DNA from: Polyangium fumosum
Lineage (GTDB): Bacteria; Myxococcota_A; Polyangia; Polyangiales; Polyangiaceae
Assembly: GCF_005144585.1 (NCBI RefSeq)
Contig: NZ_SSMQ01000020.1
Location: forward strand, 62,001 to 126,000
Reading direction: 5' to 3'
DNA length: 64,000 nucleotides
Part shown: piece by piece, positions 1 through 52,500 of the stretch
Layout of the letters: each line of letters begins with the position of its first letter
Numbering within the stretch: the first letter of the stretch is position 1
The notes under the pieces: model-generated
Seen by the model: the letters and a program-made list of their open reading frames with translations, nothing else
Databases searched by the model: none
Told to the model about the DNA's origin: nothing
Position numbers and translations under genes: made by a program

Positions 1-866
1 CCCGAGTGCGTCGGGATGCCGTTCACATAGGAGCGCACCGACTCTTCGGGCGACTCGGTCCAGAGCAGCGCGGCTTCGAGCCGGATGTCGCCGTCCTTCG
101 CGACGTGAAACATCGACGCGTGCACCGCGGGCTTGCCCCGCTGCGTGACGAGCTTCGGCAGGTAGTCGACGATCCCGTTCGGGTGCACGAGCTCGACGGT
201 CTCGCCCGTCGCCTGATCCTTGAAGACGATGAGCAAGCCGCCGTGCAGGTAGGCCTTCGCTTCGAGGCGCTCGCGGACGGTGTCCGCGTCGAACGATGCT
301 TTGTCCCCAAAGATTTCGGGGTCGGGGCGGAAGTGCAGGACGGTCCCGTGCTTGCGGGTCGCGGCGCCGCGCTTGAGCTTGCCCGTCGGGATGCCTCGGC
401 TGAAGGCCTGCATGTGCTCGAAGCCGTCGCGGAGGACCTTCACGTTGAGCTCGACGGAGAGCGCGTTCACCACGCTCGAACCCACGCCGTGCAGGCCGCC
501 GGAGACCTTGTAGTTCGAGCTCGCGAACTTGCCGCCGGCGTGCAGCGTGCAGAGGATGAGCTCGAGCGCAGGGCGGTTGTACTTCGGGTGGACGTCGATC
601 GGGAAGCCGCGGCCGTCATCGCCGATCGTCGCGCCGCGCCGATCGGCGTCGAGCGTCACCTCGATGCGCTTGGCGTGGCCGTTGATCGCCTCGTCGACCG
701 CGTTGTCGACGATCTCCCAGAGCAGGTGGTGGTAGCCGCGCGTGTCGGTCCCGCCGATGTACATCGCGGGGCGCTTGCGCACCGGTTCGAGGCCTTCGAG
801 GACCTCGATGTCCTTCGCGGTGTAGCGCGATCCGGAGGCGGGCTGCGGGGGAGCGGTCGTTGCCAT
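1..866 (-). CDS. parE: DNA topoisomerase IV subunit B (ParE), partial
   Basis: ATPase subunit of type IIA topoisomerase IV, which together with ParC unlinks daughter chromosomes using ATP. About 288 codons are visible and the gene runs off the left edge. The N-terminal GHKL ATPase fold is clear: RKRPAMYIGG near residue 30, the EIVDNAVDEA helix with the Mg-binding Asn, the DDGRGFPIDVH loop, and GGLHGVGSSVVNALS. The ATG start lies only 3 nt after the parC stop, so the two subunits are co-transcribed and probably translationally coupled. It could in principle be GyrB, but pairing with a ParC-type A subunit in the order parC-parE favours topoisomerase IV. Confidence 0.9.
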   Translation of the reverse strand, partial: MATTAPPQPASGSRYTAKDIEVLEGLEPVRKRPAMYIGGTDTRGYHHLLWEIVDNAVDEAINGHAKRIEVTLDADRRGATIGDDGRGFPIDVHPKYNRPALELILCTLHAGGKFASSNYKVSGGLHGVGSSVVNALSVELNVKVLRDGFEHMQAFSRGIPTGKLKRGAATRKHGTVLHFRPDPEIFGDKASFDADTVRERLEAKAYLHGGLLIVFKDQATGETVELVHPNGIVDYLPKLVTQRGKPAVHASMFHVAKDGDIRLEAALLWTESPEESVRSYVNGIPTHS

Positions 867-869
867 GGA

Positions 870-3296
870 TCAGCTCTCCTCCTCGGGTTTGCCGAGGACG
901 GGCGTCGCGACGGGGGGCGGGACGAGCCGGACGATGCGGTCCTTCTTTGCAGGGAAGCACTGGCGGCCGAACTCGCCGCGCGCTCCGCGCATCTTCTCCG
1001 CGTTCTCACGGAGGAGCTTGCCTTTCTCGTTCTCGACCTCGATGAGATCGTCGAGCGACGCGCCGACCAAGCGTTCGCCCTCGTCGAGCTTCATCACGGT
1101 CGAGCCCTTGCCCGCGCCGGAGAGGACGCCGATCTCCTCGACGGGCACGCCGAGCGCGAAGCCGTTCGCCGCGATGAGCGCGACGAGGCCTTGGGAGGGG
1201 GGCAGCAGGACCGCGAGCACCTCGTCGTTCTCGCCGAGCTTCGCGAACTTGCGGCCGGCGCGCGTGCTCGGCTCACGGTGCTGCCGGAGCGAGAAGCGGA
1301 AGCCGAGGCCGCCGCGGGTGAGCGCGAGCGCGAAGGGCGGCTCGGGTTCGACGGCCCCTTCCGTCGGGGCGCGGAGCTCCTCGCCGAGGGCGCGCGGATC
1401 GAGCGACATCATCGCCACCATTCGCTCGCCGTCCGCCATCTTGAAGAGCTTCTGGACCGGATCGCCGTAGCCCGTCGAGGGCGGGATGTCGTGGATGCGG
1501 CAGACGTAGCAGACGCCGAGGGTCGAGAAGAACGCGACGGCCGAGCGCGTCGAGCCTGCGACCGCGGCGAGCACGGAGTCTCCCTCGCGGAGCCGCGTCT
1601 GCGCAGGATCCTTGAGCTCGCGCTGCCGTTTGACCCAGCCCTGCGCGGAGAGGATCACGTTCGCATCTTCCGCGACGATGAAGTCCTCGGCCTGGAACTC
1701 CGGCTCGTCGACCGCGCCCATGATCTTCGTGCGGCGGCGATCGCCGTACTTCTCCTTCATCTGCGCGAGCTCGTCGCGCACGAGGTCCCAGCGCCGCGTG
1801 TCGCTCTTGAGCAGCGCGTCGAGGCGCTTTGCCTCGGCGCGTTTGTCCGCGAGCTCCTTGCGCACGACCTGGATTTCCAGCCGCGCGAGCCGGTAGAGGC
1901 GGAGCTCCAGGATCGCGTCCGTCTGCTCCTCCGAGAGGTTGAAGCGCTTGATCAGCTTGCCCGCGGCGTCCGCCTTGCCGTCGCTCTTGCGGATGATCGC
2001 GATCACCTCGTCGAGCGCGTCGAAGACGATCTCGAGGCCTTCGAGGACGTGGATGCGCGCCTTGAGCTCGCCGAGGTCGAACTCCAGCCGCCGCGTCACC
2101 GTCGAGTACCGGAACGTCAGGAACTGGTTCAGGATCTCGTCGAGCCCGAGGCGCTTCGGCGCGGCGACCTCGGGGTTGTCCGTGGGCACGAGGCAGGTGA
2201 GGTTCACCGGCACGTGCACCGCGAGCGGCGTGTTCTTGTAGAGGTACGCCATCACGAGCTGCGGATCCGTCCCGCGCTTCGTCTCCAGCACGATGCGCAC
2301 GAGGTCTGTCGACTCGTCGCGCACGTCGAGCAGCGGCGGCAGCTTCTTCGAGAGGATCACTTCGGCGATCTTCTCGACGATCGCCTTGCGCTCGACGCCG
2401 TACGGGATCGACGTGACCACGAGGAACGAGGGACCCCGCTTCGTGTCGTCCTCTTCGATCTTCCACTCGCCGCGCAGCTTCAGCGAGCCCTGGCCCGTCG
2501 TGTAGACCGCCTCGAGCTCCTCCTTCGTCGCGTGGAGCTGTCCGCCCGTCGGGAAGTCCGGGCCCTTGATCTTCTTCAAGAGCCGGCTCACCGGCAGATC
2601 CCGCTGGTTCGACAGCTCGATGCAGGCGTCGAGCACCTCCATCAGGTTGTGCGGCGGGATGCTCGTCGCCATGCCGACGGCGATGCCCTGCGAGCCGTTC
2701 ACGAGCAGGTTCGGGAAGCGCGCCGGCAGGATGATCGGCTCGCTCTTCGTGCCGTCGTAGTTCGGCCGCCACTCCACGGTGCGCTTGCCGAGCTCGCCGA
2801 GCAGCTCGATCGCGAGCGGCCGCAGCTTCGCTTCGGTGTAGCGCATCGCGGCGGGTGCATCGCCGTCGATCGAGCCGAAGTTGCCGTGGCCCGCGACGAG
2901 CGGCGCGCGCATCACGAAGTCCTGCGCGAGCCGGACCATCGCGTCGTAGATCGCGGTGTCGCCGTGCGGGTGGTACTTACCCATCACGTCACCGACCACG
3001 GCCGCGCTCTTGCGGAAGCGCCCGTCGGGGGAGAGGTGCAGGTCGTGCAGCATCGCGTAGAGGATGCGGCGCTGCACCGGCTTCAGGCCGTCGCGCACGT
3101 CGGGGAGCGCGCGCGACGTGATGACGCTCAGCGCGTAGTTCAGGTACTTGCGCTGCGCCTCTTCCGCGAGTGACGTGTCGGGCACCGGGGGCGGCGGCGG
3201 CGGCTCGCTCCCGCCCGGTGTCTTGGGGGCGCGCCGAGGCCTCTTCGGACCACCCTCGCCATCGAGGGGAAACGGGACCTGCTGAGCAGGGGGCAC
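870..3296 (-). CDS. parC: DNA topoisomerase IV subunit A (ParC)
   Basis: Breakage-reunion subunit of topoisomerase IV, 808 aa. It has a proline-rich N-terminal extension of about 40 residues, then the winged-helix domain with the quinolone-resistance region ([17 protein letters not shown]). The catalytic tyrosine is Tyr153 in [10 protein letters not shown]. The tower and coiled-coil regions follow, then a C-terminal beta-pinwheel region. I see no canonical GyrA box (QRRGGKG) in the C-terminal part, which fits a topoisomerase IV rather than a gyrase role. It is the first gene of a parC-parE pair; a candidate promoter lies about 110 nt upstream. Confidence 0.9.
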
Positions 3297-3646
3297 GGGC
3301 GTTATCTCCAGGGTAGGGAGGCCACGCGCCGCCGCCTCGGCTAGCGCGTGCCCCCCAGGAATCGACGGTGTACCCGCGTTCAGTGGACCGCAGGCAGGGG
3401 GATGCCATTACCCACGGAGCGCCGATCGGTCAAGCCACGGCGGCACGGTCGCGGCGGGCACGCCAGCTCCGAAACGCGTTCGTCCGAAGGGATTCTGCCG
3501 GCGAATCCGCGCCCGTCCCCATCGATCCGGCCCCCTTCCGACGGACGCCCCGCGTCCCGGGCGCCCTGCCGTCCACACATGGACATGGAAAACCAGCGGC
3601 TCCCACCTTGAGACCTCTGGCCCGCTGGGCTACGGGGAGGCGCCCC
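3297..3646. other. Divergent intergenic region between parC and bamA
   Basis: About 350 bp without a supportable gene. It must carry promoters for both flanking genes. I can suggest only the minus-strand parC promoter. No convincing forward promoter for bamA is visible. Long open frames crossing it are unbroken only because stop codons are rare at this GC content. Confidence 0.6.
3405..3433 (-). promoter_or_regulatory. Candidate sigma70-type promoter for parC-parE
   Basis: On the minus strand TTGACC (3433-3428) is followed after 17 nt by TAATGG (3410-3405). This is a near-consensus -35 with an imperfect -10. It would start transcription near 3398, giving a leader of about 100 nt before parC. 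Confidence 0.35.
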
Positions 3647-23998: not shown

Positions 23999-24730
23999 AT
24001 GGCAAGACTCCACGTGGGCCTGCACGCCCTTCAGGGCGACATCAAGAAGTACAAGGATCAGCTCGATCTGGTGGAGATCCGCCCGGTCGACATGTCGCTG
24101 CCCGGCGCGCCCGGCCTGCGAAAGTGGCGAAAATCGGTGCCGCCCGCCTTCGTGTTCAGCGTGGTCTTGCCGCGCGTCGTGGCCGAGCTCGCCCCTGGCA
24201 AGGCGCTCGACGACGCGCTCGCCACCTCGCTCGAGGTCGCGACGACGCTCGAAGCGCGATGCATCGTGCTCTCGACGTCGACCGAGATCCGGCCGACCGC
24301 GGCGAACCGCAAGCGCATCGCCGCGCTCTTCGCGCGGATCCCGGGCGAAGGCGCGCTTCGCTTCTGGGAGCCGCGTGGCATGTGGGAGCGTGAAGACGTG
24401 ATCGACACGGCGCGCGCCGCGGGCGTGCTTCCGGTCTTCGACGCCGCGCGCGACGATCTGCCGCGCGGATCCGTGGTCTACACGCGTCTCCGATCGCTCG
24501 GCGCGCAGACGATGCTCTCGGCCGCGGCGCTCGATCGCGTGGCGCGTAGGCTCGGCGAGCGTCGGGACATTTTCTTGGTGGTCGAAGGAACCCGCGGCGC
24601 CGCGATCCGCGCGAAGAGCACGCTCGTCGCCGCGCTCGCGCGCTCGGCCCGCGCGCCGGAGGCGGGCTCGATCATCGCGCCGGTCGCGCCGATCGTGCGC
24701 CCGCTCGTCGCAGAGGACGAGGAGCAGTGA
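23999..24730 (+). CDS. DUF72 family protein
   Basis: A 243-aa DUF72 protein with a TIM-barrel-like fold. VGLHALQGDIKKYKDQLDLVEI corresponds to the conserved N-terminal strand and the tyrosine-rich segment. KWRKSVPPAFVFSVVLPRVV matches the W-(x)n-P-(x)2-F-(x)-FSVK block. Biochemical function of the family is unknown. It is coupled to the next gene by a GTGA overlap, suggesting that the two proteins work together. Confidence 0.8.
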   Translation: MARLHVGLHALQGDIKKYKDQLDLVEIRPVDMSLPGAPGLRKWRKSVPPAFVFSVVLPRVVAELAPGKALDDALATSLEVATTLEARCIVLSTSTEIRPTAANRKRIAALFARIPGEGALRFWEPRGMWEREDVIDTARAAGVLPVFDAARDDLPRGSVVYTRLRSLGAQTMLSAAALDRVARRLGERRDIFLVVEGTRGAAIRAKSTLVAALARSARAPEAGSIIAPVAPIVRPLVAEDEEQ

Positions 24731-25776
24731 TCCGCGGCGCCCTCGCACTCGCGCGCTCGTCGACCACGCAGGGCCCGGCCCAGGCCGCGCTCGACGCCGG
24801 AGGCAGCGCGGCCGACGCGGTCATCGCCGGGTTTTTCGCGCTCGCCGGCCAAGATGCCTCCGTCCTGCTTTCGCCCGTCGTGGCGATCGTCGCGGGCGGA
24901 GGAGCCGGGGCGCGTGTGATCGATGGACGCTCGCTCCAGCCTGGAAAAGGTGCGGCCCGCCCGCGCGGGTGGAAGACCGAAAAAGAGATCCCATCGGGCG
25001 CATACGTCGCTGTGCCGCGATCCCTCGGGCTCATCGCGATCCTGCACGCGGCGCGTGGTCGCTCGGGGCTCGGCGGACTCGCGCGGGCCGGCGTCGCGGC
25101 GGCGGAGGCCGCGGGCGCGACGAAACGCGCGGCGCTGATCAAGCGCGTGGGGTCAGCAGGGCCGCTCGCGCTCGCCTCCGAGGAGGCGGTGAGCGCGCTG
25201 CTCGCGGCGGGAGGGCCCGTGGCGGGCGGTATCCTCACGGCCGAGGATCTGGAGAGCGCGATGCCCGAGGACGTGCCCGCCCGCACGACGTCGCTCGGAG
25301 CCGACGTGTCGGCGCTCAGCGTGCCCTGGGACGCGCCGCTCGGTCGGCTCCCGGTGGCCGACGCGATCCTCGCGTGCGACGGTCGAGGCCTGCTCGCAGC
25401 GCTCGTCGTCGTGCCGACGCGGCGCGAGCAAGGCGTGCTCGTGCCGGAGCTCGAGCTCGTGCTCGGCCGGCATGCGCAGCCGGTGCGGCGCGGAGTCCCG
25501 CGGACATCGCCAGGCGCGCCGCTCGACATGCCGGCGCCGCTCGCGATCGTGGGCAAGTCCGGATTTTACGCGGCCGTGGCGCTGCTCGGGAAGGCAGGCG
25601 TCGACGTCGCGGCGCTGCGCCCGCTCGCCGAGGGGTGGCCGGCCGAAACAGCCGTCGCGGAGCTGCGGGAGAAGTCAGGCGCGCTCACGGCGATGGCCTT
25701 GCTGCGGGATGCGCGGGACGCGCGGTCCTTGGTCTCGACCGGGGACGCGACGGCGCGAGCCAGCGACGAGCCCTGA
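24727..25776 (+). CDS. Gamma-glutamyltranspeptidase-like protein without the catalytic Thr
   Basis: A 349-aa protein whose start (ALARSSTTQGPAQAALDAGGSAADAVIAGFFAL) resembles the large-subunit N-terminus of gamma-glutamyltranspeptidases (A-x(n)-A-L-x-x-GGNAVDAAVA). The segment GGILTAEDLESAMPEDVPA resembles the GGxxxxxDL region. It is about 200 residues shorter than real GGTs. I cannot find the self-cleavage Thr or the small-subunit nucleophile motif (H-x-T-x-x), so it is probably not an active transpeptidase. No signal peptide is evident. The family assignment is moderate and rests on the first 60 residues. Confidence 0.55.
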   Translation: MIRGALALARSSTTQGPAQAALDAGGSAADAVIAGFFALAGQDASVLLSPVVAIVAGGGAGARVIDGRSLQPGKGAARPRGWKTEKEIPSGAYVAVPRSLGLIAILHAARGRSGLGGLARAGVAAAEAAGATKRAALIKRVGSAGPLALASEEAVSALLAAGGPVAGGILTAEDLESAMPEDVPARTTSLGADVSALSVPWDAPLGRLPVADAILACDGRGLLAALVVVPTRREQGVLVPELELVLGRHAQPVRRGVPRTSPGAPLDMPAPLAIVGKSGFYAAVALLGKAGVDVAALRPLAEGWPAETAVAELREKSGALTAMALLRDARDARSLVSTGDATARASDEP

Positions 25777-25801
25777 GGGGGTGTTGTTTCGCAGCGCCTC
25801 G

Positions 25802-25904
25802 CCGGGGTTTCACCCCGGACCCGACCAGGGGCTCTTCGCCCCTGGACCCGAACCAGGGCACGGCCCTGGACCGCTGGTGCATCGACCGCGATGCGGTCGA
25901 TGCA
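25802..25904 (+). repeat. Four-hairpin dispersed repeat element, copy 1
   Basis: Four perfect hairpins in a row. H1 is CCGGGGT-TTC-ACCCCGG (25802-25818). H2 is CCAGGGGC-TCTTC-GCCCCTGG (25825-25845). H3 is CCAGGGC-ACG-GCCCTGG (25853-25869). H4 is TGCATCGACCGC-GAT-GCGGTCGATGCA (25878-25904). The linkers are ACCCGA, ACCCGAA and ACCGCTGG. The same order, spacing and linker starts recur in two copies near 49.2-49.5 kb, with different stem sequences. It fills the gap between the GGT-like gene (+) and the rpmB 3' end (minus); the rest of that gap (25905-25980 and 26013-26085) shows nothing recognisable. Confidence 0.85.
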
Positions 25905-25980
25905 AAGCTCGGAAAGCCTACGAAACACCCTCTGAGCCGACGAGCCGCTCGCTCGCTCACTGCTCGGAGAACACATAGAC

Positions 25981-49138: not shown

Positions 49139-49211
49139 GAGGGGGGCACGCCGCCTCGGTCCAGGCCGTGCCTTGAGCATGGGGGGGTCTCATCGCAAAG
49201 CCGCCACGCCG

Positions 49212-49318
49212 CCGGGGCGCTGCCCCGGACCCCGCGGGGGGCTGTCCGCCCCCTCGACCCCGGACCAGGCACGGCCTGGACCGGTGATTGAAAAACTGCG
49301 CTCCGCGCAGTTTTTCAA
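49212..49318 (+). repeat. Four-hairpin dispersed repeat element, copy 2
   Basis: H1 CCGGGGC-GCT-GCCCCGG (49212-49228). H2 GGGGGC-TGTCC-GCCCCC (49237-49253). H3 CCAGGC-ACG-GCCTGG (49265-49279). H4 TTGAAAAACTGCGC-TCC-GCGCAGTTTTTCAA (49288-49318). Linkers contain ACCCC, ACCCCGGA and ACCGGTGA. A further partial H3 in inverted orientation (GGTCCAGGCCGTGCCTT) lies at 49158-49174. Confidence 0.85.
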
Positions 49319-49408
49319 ACGGGCCGACGAAGAAGCCGGGGTGCCAGCAGAACCCGCAGCGCGGCTGTCTTGGTTGGCAACGCCGCGGCTGGTCTTGACC
49401 GGGCCTGT

Positions 49409-49516
49409 TCGATGAACTGCGCATCGCGCAGTTCATCGAGCTTGGGTCCAGCGCCTCGCTGGTCCGGGGTGCAGGGGGCGGACAGCCCCCTGCTGGGGTG
49501 CGGGGCAACGCCCCGC
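49409..49516 (-). repeat. Four-hairpin dispersed repeat element, copy 3 (inverted)
   Basis: Read on the minus strand: H1 GCGGGGC-GTT-GCCCCGC (49516-49500), H2 GCAGGGGGC-TGTCC-GCCCCCTGC (49493-49471), H3 CCAGCG-AGG-CGCTGG (49462-49448), H4 TCGATGAACTGCGC-GAT-GCGCAGTTCATCGA (49439-49409). The linkers start ACCCCA, ACCCCGGA and ACCCAAGC. It faces copy 2 tail to tail across a 90-bp centre and abuts the 3' end of the downstream kinase gene. The whole 49139-49517 gap is made of these elements plus that centre. Confidence 0.85.
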
Positions 49517-49517
49517 G

Positions 49518-52500
49518 CTAGCGACTGGGCTTCACGGAAGCCGGCGCGGCGGCGCTTGGCTCCGCGGGCGGCGGCGTCGAGAGCGGGCTTCGCGTGGAGA
49601 GCGCGCGCGTCCATGCCGCGATCGTCTCGCTCGCGGGCGCGGGCCAGCCCATGCGGCTGAACCTGCGCAGGAGCTCGGGTGTGTGATCCCCGGTGCGCCT
49701 CGGATCCTGGAACGTCTTCCGCGCGAGATCGAGCTCGTTCGCGGCGTCCTGGAACCGGCCCTCGTGGTACGCGAGCCACGCGCGGGTGAGCGCGAGGTGC
49801 TGCTTCGGCTCGGCCTCGGCGAGCCCCGTGGCTTCGCACTCGGCGAGCGCCGCGCGCGCGACCTCCGCCTGCCCACGCTCGAGCGCGATCTGCGCGACGA
49901 TGATCTTGATCTCGACCCGTCCCCACGGATCGGAGAGCCGGTCGAAGAGCGCCGTCGCGGCGCGCGCGTGCGCGTCCGCCATGTCGAGCTGGCCTGCGTC
50001 GAACGCGGTCATCGCGAGCAGACGCTCGCACGCGCCCTCGCCGCGCGGGTTGCCGAGATCGCGGAAGCTCCGGCGCGACAGGAGCGCCACGCGCCGCGCT
50101 TCTTCGAGCCGACCTTCGCGGTGATCCGAGTGCGCGAGCGTCACGTCGCACTGGGCCATGCCGAGGCGATAGCCGATCGCGTCGAACTCGGCGCGCGCCG
50201 TGCGGAGGAGCGCGCGAGCCTTCTCGGGTGAGCCGCCGGCTTGCTCGACGAAGCTGTGCAGCACGAGGCATTGCGCGTGGCCGAGGCGATCGCCGACGGC
50301 CTGGAACTTTGGCCCTGCGCTCTCGAGGATGCGGGCCGCGTCGAGGTGCGCGCCGAGCAGGAAGTCGATCTCTCCGAGGATCACCTCGCAGAGCGCTTGC
50401 CCGTGCGTGTCGCCGAGCGACTGGAACATCTCGAGCGCGCTCGCCACGAGCTTGCGACCTTCGGCGGGCGCGGCGAGATCACTCGCGGCGTGACCGAGGA
50501 GCCGGAGGCACGCGGCCTCGCTCTCGGGATCGCCCGCCACGTGAAAGAGCCTGCGCGCTTCTTCGGCTTCGCGCCGGCAGTCTTCGAGCCTGCCCGCGTG
50601 CCGCAGCGCTTCGGCGCGCCACCTGCGATGCCGCGCGAGCAAGAGCCCTTCGAGGCGACCGTCGAGCAGCGATAGATCGCGCAGCGTCGCCTGCACGTCG
50701 CGCGTGCGCCCCCACGAGTCGGCGATCGAGTGGTGCAGGAGCTCCGCGGCCACGTTCACGTCGCCGGCGCGGACGAGGTTCGTCACGCGGTGGCGCACGA
50801 TGCGGCGGCTGCTCGCGTCGGGGTGATGGCCGAGCGCGTTCGCGGCGGCGCGCAGGACCGCGGCTGCATCCGGCTGCACGAAGAGCTGCCCGAGCAGGTG
50901 CTCTTGCAGGAGCGCATGGGGCCACCGCAGGCGCTCTTCACCGGACGCGAGCAGGATCTGCGCGCGCTTCATCGCAGCCACCGCGCGCTCCGCGTCCACG
51001 CCGAGCGCCCCGAGCTCGAGCCGCAGCACGTCCTCGCGGATGTCTCCACCAAGCGCCGCCGCTGCGCGTGCGCCGCGCCGGAGATCCTCGGGGATCGCGC
51101 GCAGACGATCCTCCCAGAGCTCGGCCGTCGTGCCCGCGCGCATCGCGAGCTTCGCCTCGGGGACCACGTAGCGCCCGTCGCGCAGCTCGATGTGCCCGCC
51201 CGTCGCCCATGCGTGGACGATCTGCAGCGCGAAGAGCGGGTTGCCTTTGCTGCGTTGCGCGGCCTCGACCACGGCGGCCTCGTCGAGCGGCAACGTCTCG
51301 CGCAGGAGCGCGTGCGTCTGCGTCGGGTCGAGCGGCTCGAGCGTCAGGCGATCGCCGCCGAGCTCGCGCAGGAGCCACTCGACCCACTCGCGCGCGACGG
51401 GATCCGTCATGATCGCCTCGTCGCGCACCGTGCCTACGATGAGCAGCCGCAGGCCCGGCGTCTCGCGGTGCAGCCGCGCCATGCCCTCGAACGTCGTCGG
51501 CGAGCCGTGATGCAGATCGTCGAGCATCAAGAGGAGCGGACGGCTCTTCGCGATCTTCTGCAGCGCGTACTGCATCACGCGCCAGCGCGTCTCCGACGAG
51601 AGCGCGAAGCGCTTGCCCGTCGGGCCGATCGCGTCGCCCTGCGCCGAGGGCCGGATCCACTCGGCCGTCGCGGCGACCCACATCTTGCCTTCGTCGTCCT
51701 CGGGCGCGACCTCCCACTGGTTCAGGAGGACCTTCTCGACGACGTCGCGCCCTTCACGCTCCAGCCGGTAGTGCTGCACGATCGCGCCGACCACGCCGTC
51801 GAGCGGCGCGGCGATCTTCCGGTACCGCGCGCGCAGCGGCACCACGAGGCCTCGCTCGTGCACCTCCTCGCAGAGCCACTCCGCGAGGCGCGACTTGCCC
51901 ACGCCGGCTTCGCCCGAGAGCAACAAGAAGCGGTGCTCCGGGGTCTCCGACGTGGCGATCTGCGTCGCGATGTCGAGCAGCCGCGAGCGCTCGGCCGCGC
52001 GCGCGACGAAAGGGCTCGGCCGGAGTCCGAGCAGGCCCGTCGTCGTCACCTGCGAGTCGAGGTAGGTGCTCTCGACGACGAGCGGCGAGTCGCGCAGCGG
52101 CATGGACATCGGCGGCGCGGCCGAGGGCCTCGGCGTCGCCGTCGGGTCTCCGCTGCGCGGCCGCATCCGCCAGAGGAGCGCGCGCGCGTCGGCCGCGAAT
52201 TCGAAGCGCTGCCACGGACGCTTGTTCATCAGGCGCCGCACGAGCGGCACGATGTCCGACGGGAGCCCGGGGCGGAGCGGCACCTCCGGCAGCGGCGCGC
52301 TCTTGTGCTTCGCGAGCAGCTCCTCGTCCGTGCCCTCGTAGGGCTCGCGGTTCGCGATCATCGTGAAGAGGACACAGCCGAGCGAGTAGAGGTCCGTCGA
52401 CGGACCCACGTGCGGCGCGGCGTACCGGATCTGCTCCGGCGCCATCCACCCCGGCGTGCCCGCGCCCCAGCGGATCGTCGGCTTCGAGACGGGCGAGTTG

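Follow-up and report, generated by a model that had tools for sequence, protein, structure and literature searches.

The four-hairpin repeats in a 64,000-nucleotide stretch of Polyangium fumosum DNA (contig NZ_SSMQ01000020.1, positions 62,001 to 126,000; hereafter the window) belong, with a probability that we put at about 0.78, to a family of short, non-autonomous, MITE-like transposable elements of Polyangium that carry one or two four-hairpin arms and come in two chassis with homologous arms. By the features tested, namely terminal inverted repeats (TIRs), target site duplications (TSDs), lack of a transposase and presence/absence polymorphism, the family is of the MITE type. What sets it apart is an interior of separate hairpins and conserved linkers, common to two chassis of differing ends and TSDs. 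A preliminary description of the window was right in part: it had recognized the hairpins, but missed that they sit in transposable units with inverted ends and target duplications, and that two of its three copies form a single element.

All three window copies contain four hairpins with the stems, loops and positions originally assigned to them (Table 1). Folded as single-stranded DNA, copies 1, 2 and 3 reached energies of -42.3, -44.0 and -46.9 kcal/mol, respectively, with z-scores of -8.7, -7.4 and -8.6 compared to dinucleotide shuffles; in each case 0 of 200 shuffles was as stable. Pairing, first called perfect, is near-perfect in the stems, but a bulged T makes H2 of copy 2 imperfect over its full length. 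The three reported copies are all present, but a single element accounts for both copy 2 and copy 3, as its two arms, since L-type and R-type arms face each other at most places seen. As proposed, architecture and pairing are conserved by way of paired changes, the arm alignment has conserved linkers around (G)GACC(C), and neither a single REP nor a terminator is as elaborate as the array.

Table 1. Positions of the family's features in the window.
Feature	Position	Strand	Basis
Target site duplication TGA, left; also the stop codon of the upstream gene (24727-25776 +)	25774..25776	.	sequence and comparison with related inserts
Left terminal inverted repeat GGGGGTGTTGTTTCG of single-arm element (copy 1)	25777..25791	+	sequence
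Copy 1 H1, 7 bp, 3-nt loop	25802..25818	+	fold
Copy 1 H2, 8 bp, 5-nt loop	25825..25845	+	fold
Copy 1 H3, 7 bp, 3-nt loop	25853..25869	+	fold
Copy 1 H4, 12 bp, 3-nt loop	25878..25904	+	fold
Right terminal inverted repeat CGAAACACCCTC of copy 1; element 25777-25932, 156 bp	25921..25932	+	sequence
Target site duplication TGA, right side of copy 1	25933..25935	.	sequence
Left end of double-arm element, decayed TIR CTGAGCATGGGTCTCATC with four extra G; G004 orthologue: CTGAGCATGGGTCTC	49172..49211	+	
L arm (copy 2): H1 49212-49228, H2 49235-49256, H3 core 49265-49279, H4 49288-49318	49212..49318	+	fold, covariance model
90-nt inter-arm spacer, fold unremarkable (z -1.0)	49319..49408	+	
R arm (copy 3): H4 49409-49439, H3 core 49448-49462, H2 49471-49493, H1 49500-49516	49409..49516	-	fold, covariance model

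A covariance model of the arm (R1), built from 45 arms of alignment A1 with the three window copies included, scored the window arms of copies 1-3 at 120, 118 and 82 bits. This genome (G000) has at least 150 matches to the model: all 150 scored candidates, from 16,627 first-look candidates, were positive. The element is dispersed, as first described, and the absence of further copies that the preliminary description had named as the finding that would count against it was not what we saw. Extended to relatives, as had also been proposed, the search found the family in 6/6 Polyangium genomes and in 0/24 genomes of other genera of the family or order (30 genomes). In each of five Polyangium genomes 132 of 132 scored candidates matched (at least 132 per genome), and in G001 81 of 132 did so. 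An exact pattern scan of one genome from each of 84,980 species returned, among the matches listed (82 stretches, 80 loci), only Polyangium; absence outside the genus stands only for the 24 genomes, since the species-wide scan speaks only for the matches listed. Within open-licence PMC papers, we found no description of these Polyangium repeats and no MITE study of myxobacteria.

Copy number was estimated in G004, a near-complete genome with a 13.24-Mb contig, where 40 stretches of 20 kb (38 on an even grid, with three element-rich grid positions omitted and two others added) contained 25 arms, or ~31 arms/Mb, which extrapolates to ~400 per genome. Twenty-two of the 25 arms lay between 2.3 and 7.3 Mb; when the grid stretches were taken alone, the figure was 19 of 22 arms, in 15 of 38 stretches. 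By eye, no dnaA was seen among the long ORFs in the first 20 kb of G004:C1. The 798-kb sample of this genome consists of contigs picked for their matches and overestimates density.

Most arms occur in facing pairs, in which 90 or ~120 nt of spacer separate an L arm from an R arm on the opposite strand, with H4 being TTGAAAAACTGCGC or TGGAAGAACTGCGC in L arms and mostly TCGATGAACTGCGC in R arms. Window copies 2 and 3 are one such pair, and copy 1 belongs to a single-arm class whose H4 is TGCATCGACCGC. The H1-H3 block of copy 1 shares 85% identity with its counterpart in one double-arm copy, 75% with that in window copy 2 and 73% with that in window copy 3; the arms of the two chassis therefore look homologous. 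Elements of both types are short (147-168 bp for single-arm elements and, apart from L340 and L341, 336-392 bp for double-arm elements) and lack a transposase gene. The possibility that the spacer and H4 code for a conserved peptide was dropped after inspection by eye. A 1,011-bp double-arm version, L341 (G004:C1:2855429-2856439), is flanked by a perfect 9-bp duplication; its interior, judged non-coding by eye only, is made up of CCAAGGCACGGCCTCGTACCT-like tandem repeats. At two intergenic sites (L262 and L250 of G004, C22:133675 and C66:47880 of G000), one species has a double-arm unit and the other a single-arm unit, which suggests repeated use or replacement of sites. A single-arm copy at L081:15956-16104 (G000:C22, ~96 kb) is interrupted by a different hairpin repeat, GGGGCTACGCTCGGCAAGCCGAGCTACGCCCC, and hairpins of that kind form small indels between G000 and G004.

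The inverted ends of the single-arm element are of the GAGGGTGTT type, and its target duplication is 3 bp long (TGA at copy 1); GAGGGTGTTCCAC-type ends are found at both of its termini. G004, the closest relative (94-96% identical around the window loci), has a single-arm insert of the form CGGCC-TGA-[GAGGGTGTTCCAC ... GTGGAACACCCTC]-TGA-AAAGCC at a site that is empty in this genome (CGGCC-TGA-AAAGCC), and copy 1 has the same form (TGA, 25777-25932, TGA). The copy 1 site is occupied by an arm in G005, G002, G003 and G001 as well, with H3 and H4 set apart by extra sequence in the last two, and has none in G004. Since G004 is closest to this genome, yet the arm is present in four others, G004 likely lost the element. 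Identical triplets flank 8 of 9 distinct inserts with such ends (4/5 arm-bearing, 4/4 armless); the exception is the single-arm L271, with TGA and TGG, and L281, a 45-bp insert with TTA and TCA, falls below the size limit and outside the count. Orthologous sites compared among G000, G004 and sp. 15x6 included both empty and filled ones. Another MITE family, armless and 79-121 bp long (GAGGGTGTTCCACAGGCTGCTGCGCGGC...), has the same ends with TGA/TCA triplet duplications (L268, L275, L277, L284, L285, L294), and occurs in G000, G001, G004 and G005. In L282 and L286, near 1503-1520, and as a 37-nt start in L293, GTGCG-starting sequences directly follow TGAGAGGGTGTTCCA or a near match; those of L282 and L286 contain reverse-transcriptase-like ORFs (by eye), and the sequences at all three loci may be group II introns that home into the element end.

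The double-arm element has the 15-mer CTGAGCATKGGTCTC at both of its outer ends, and exact occurrences of this 15-mer number 117 in the six genomes. An arm follows it immediately in 27 of 30 inspected loci (in one of the 27 its H1 is degraded); one element contributes both of its ends to the 30. Facing-end pairs had identical 9-mer flanks in 6 of 15 cases and agreed at 8 of 9 bases in 3 more, with a chance of ~3e-4 per pair. An in-register TSD was absent in 6 of the 15 pairs (L005, L340, L345, L348, L349, L350), with L005 displaying a 10-bp direct repeat shifted by one base and L345, the same element as in L008, a displaced 9-bp repeat. With the ends of many copies decayed, only a minority of copies tell us about ends and TSDs; the window's own double-arm element has no recognizable right TIR, and the convergent gene ends at 49518. 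Double-arm empty sites exist, in diverged surroundings that lack a base-exact junction.

Transposases acting in trans on the element ends would spread such elements, and for the single-arm type the sequences point to a candidate. In L302, an IS5-family transposase (NF033580, E 1.8e-63; DDE_Tnp_1 and DUF4096) lies behind the end GAGGGTGTTCATCAGGA, adjoining TAA, and another IS5-family copy, L299, has the opposite end GAGGGTGTTCGTCAGGA, adjoining TTA. The IS ends read GAGGGTGTTCrTCAGGA, the first ten bases of which are those of the single-arm ends, and both adjoin T-N-A triplets. Like the single-arm element, the insertion sequences of L302 and L299 have GAGGGTGTTC.. ends next to TNA-type triplets, but they have their own transposase and no four-hairpin arm, and their left and right ends, taken from different copies, have ~10 nt plus scattered matches in common with the single-arm ends. 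Since ends and T-N-A context are similar, we infer that an IS5-family transposase acting in trans is a candidate mobilizer of the single-arm type. No intact IS5-family copy with both ends was seen, and among 15 IS5-type DUF4096 loci examined, GAGGGTGTT-like ends occur only in L299, L302 and the decayed L309. The left end of L279 (G002), GAGGGTGTTCCACAAGGAG, has a continuation that resembles that of L302 by eye. We found no transposase for the double-arm element. The 3.5-kb L340 was considered as its autonomous form (TIR, arm, IS1-like transposase, arm, TIR) and rejected, as the IS1-like insertion sequence is nested and has its own ends, GGTAGTGGGG, inside an arm and between two copies of GGACTCGG (register by eye). 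It spans ~364-3522 (~3.15 kb) in the R arm, with GGACTCGG as an in-register 8-bp repeat; its transposase matches PF03400, with NF033558 below its cut-off, and a 69% homologue is present at L065:16284-17378 of this genome. L340 does not represent an IS1-family transposon with arms as its own ends.

We measured stem pairing within arms. Of the stem cells in 43 distinct arms of this genome, 98.5% are paired; 118 changes there are two-sided and a single one is one-sided. For 141 distinct arms of other Polyangium the paired share is 99.7% and the two-sided changes number 369, and pairing among them falls to 36-47% when the partner is slid by one to three bases. Stems varying without compensation, the other finding that the preliminary description had named against itself, are not the rule: the majority of stem changes are paired. 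These counts refer to sequences, not events, and since much covariation lies between arm classes (L versus R, H4 types), few events may underlie many cells. One-sided changes in alignment A3 (150 of 165 matches, from 76 of 80 scan loci) fall in one edge pair of H2 in 53 of 56 instances, which we read as the bulged T of L arms, the same bulge as in the fold of copy 2, and not as a G-U pair. Across 337 H4 stems (6 of 343 arms were dropped), 4,621 cells are Watson-Crick, 12 G-T, 18 A-C and 67 others; the last lie chiefly at the outermost two positions, as the single-arm H4 is no longer than 12 bp. One H4 position has TA in 165 arms, AT in 141, CG in 21 and GC in 7, with 3 non-pairs; the single-arm H4 class also gives part of the rarer pair types, so that not all are point changes. 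H4 loops occur in both orientations (GAT 161 / ATC 15, TCC 78 / GGA 3, TTC 13 / GAA 11).

We likewise compared orthologous stems. In eight comparisons, six between this genome and G004 plus copy 1 versus G002 and G005, 426 of 447 stem pairs were unchanged, 13 were changed on both sides and still paired, 7 were changed on one side and 1 had a gap, in a count that uses stems perfect in this genome and hence leans towards finding stems kept there. Outside the stems, 82 of 936 aligned bases differ, and independent change at that rate would give ~70 one-sided and 3 to 4 two-sided pairs. The sum omits C22:52935 (inverted centre), C22:181937 (not alignable) and C22:107509 (different element types). 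The seven one-sided changes comprise two G-T, three A-C and two other mismatches, one of the seven lying in a chance spacer stem that the stem list includes. At C66:57275, the R-arm H4 of G004 is now of the L-arm type, which accounts for 4 of the 13 paired changes; because these four belong to one H4, they probably reflect one conversion event. The outer pairs of H2 at the copy 1 site vary by species (CC/GG, GC/GC, CG/CG). Relative to G004, the central segment of G000:C22:52935-53238 (both H4 and the spacer) is inverted, as expected from recombination between facing arms.

Mapped against gene ends, another step first suggested in the preliminary description, the units are mostly intergenic and near gene 3' ends, often between convergent genes. 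In ~1.4 Mb surveyed with a simple codon-usage gene caller, after setting aside 2 of 62 units that were not flanked on both sides by called genes, 59 of 60 units were intergenic. Convergent genes flanked 33 (one of which overlapped a called ORF), co-directional genes 22 and divergent genes 5, compared to 95, 383 and 171 background gaps (n=649); Fisher p values of ~1e-11 for convergent and 0.0015 for divergent positions are somewhat too small because orthologous units were counted in both genomes. The distance to the gene 3' end was <50 bp in 63 of 86 cases, with a median of 26, and both window units lie between convergent genes. Purging of insertions elsewhere would let elements persist at gene ends; together with targeting of T-N-A triplets, stop codons among them, by the single-arm type, it would explain this location without a host function. 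In G004, the orthologues of C66:44189 and C22:147277 are without the element and have another hairpin, CCCCTCTCCC-N-GGGAGAGGGG or similar; since element-free sites carry another hairpin, gene ends seem to collect several repeat families.

The preliminary description had allowed that the structure might act as RNA. A structured ncRNA or 3' UTR element, with its four-stem fold selected as RNA, would agree with the very stable folds, the conserved linkers and loops and a gene-end position that would allow transcription, but the pair types make it very improbable. H4 stems hold 12 G-T versus 18 A-C in 4,718 cells, and outside the H2 edge pair alignments A1, A2 and A3 hold 1, 1 and 4 G-T versus 7, 4 and 7 A-C. 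As a control, 15 distinct tRNAs in the same DNA had 46 G-U (13%) and 0 A-C in 352 pairs. Since G-T is not preferred over A-C, unlike in tRNA, the palindromes are kept at the DNA level or on both strands, and RNA function of one strand is unsupported. Also counting against it, arms are mostly in inverted pairs, so that there is no single sense strand, and the window has no Rfam match at gathering scores, weak matches being far below them. Pairing needed on both RNA strands would exclude G-U as well, and this is what a host-useful bidirectional terminator or 3'-end insulator between convergent genes, selected on both strands, would require. The convergent excess (33/60 units versus 95/649 gaps) and the median of 26 bp from gene 3' ends are in keeping with such a role, which we nonetheless regard as unlikely: an insertion or purging bias would account for the position, the element is missing at some orthologous sites, and no T tract characteristic of an intrinsic terminator follows H1-H4, the double-arm unit having one chance-level site, in its spacer. 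At copy 1, a weak 5-pair terminator-like site (25770-25782) overlaps the gene end and the left TIR, not H1-H4, and the convergent gene beside it has its own terminator at 26013-25990.

Movement offers a different alternative, in which the repeats are of the REPIN/BIME type and are moved by a RAYT (Y1 HUH transposase) via single-stranded DNA hairpins. We consider this scarcely credible, even with inverted pairs of hairpin modules in hundreds of intergenic copies and Y1_Tnp matches in G000, G001 and G005: G002, G003 and G004, each with at least 132 family matches, have no Y1_Tnp (PF01797) match, and RAYTs seem dispensable for the family. To our knowledge, TIRs and TSDs are not expected from IS200/IS605-type transposition, and REPINs and BIMEs are defined without a target duplication; TIRs and 3- or 9-bp TSDs are what the Polyangium family has, in units of 147-392 bp. 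REPINs and BIMEs (Bertels and Rainey 2011, PMC3116915) resemble the family in being extragenic and numerous, in joining palindromic modules as inverted pairs and in their reported compensatory changes, but the Polyangium unit is far larger, has TIRs and TSDs, and lacks a RAYT in three rich genomes. Paired changes had been said to imply selection on structure; alone they are insufficient for this, because template switching or gene conversion between copies gives paired changes too. One possibility, on the unlikely side but the strongest of the alternatives, is that recombination (gene conversion, inversion) among differing dispersed copies is the sole source of the paired changes, with no templated mutation and no hairpin selection. 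The H4 at C66:57275 that switched to the L type, the inverted centre at C22:52935, element types that differ at one site between species, and covariation of which much lies between arm classes, so that few events may underlie it, all point this way; the origin of the different paired states is left unexplained, however, and loops in both orientations (GAT/ATC, TTC/GAA) fit hairpin templating. Template switching, as described in PMC8794818, is a DNA replication error that gives multi-base compensatory changes and repairs imperfect stems. Such hairpin-templated correction would keep stems intact at the DNA level, as would conversion between arms and copies, and selection for a DNA hairpin might be an added factor. 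Template switching predicts the observed patterns, and conversion between copies is an equally live contributor. The hairpin evolution treated by Monttinen and Loytynoja 2022 (PMC8794818) concerns RNA genes, in contrast to what would be hundreds of dispersed mobile DNA copies here. A more ambitious proposal, which we hold to be doubtful, makes the four-hairpin arm a functional DNA module that a host or transposition factor recognizes in the form of extruded or single-stranded hairpins, and that was captured by two unrelated chassis and is kept perfect by hairpin-templated correction; if true, Polyangium genomes would hold hundreds of natural records of template-switch repair.

The MITE-like elements favoured here can be set beside known bacterial MITEs. 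As described in PMC3733652, RUP, NEMIS, Bcr1, ERIC, YPAL, Nezha and EFAR are likewise short, with TIRs, target duplications and no transposase gene, and have many intergenic copies and strong secondary structure; QMITE2 of Coxiella (PMC10969869) has the same likenesses. In contrast to MITEs, the Polyangium elements have an interior of separate hairpins joined by conserved linkers, four in the single-arm type and four plus four in the double-arm type, and their homologous arms are found in two chassis whose ends and TSD lengths differ. MITEs are typically AT-rich, according to PMC3733652, whereas the Polyangium family is GC-rich (~72%).

The family accounts for much interspersed DNA at Polyangium gene ends, and since some copies are located at contig ends in the draft genome, it may help explain contig breaks. 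Its hundreds of dispersed hairpin arrays, together with their orthologues (shared DNA ~86-96% identical), provide a natural test of how near-perfect inverted repeats are kept up. Compensatory change without intermediates has been debated for RNA genes, and that question is now open to mobile DNA.
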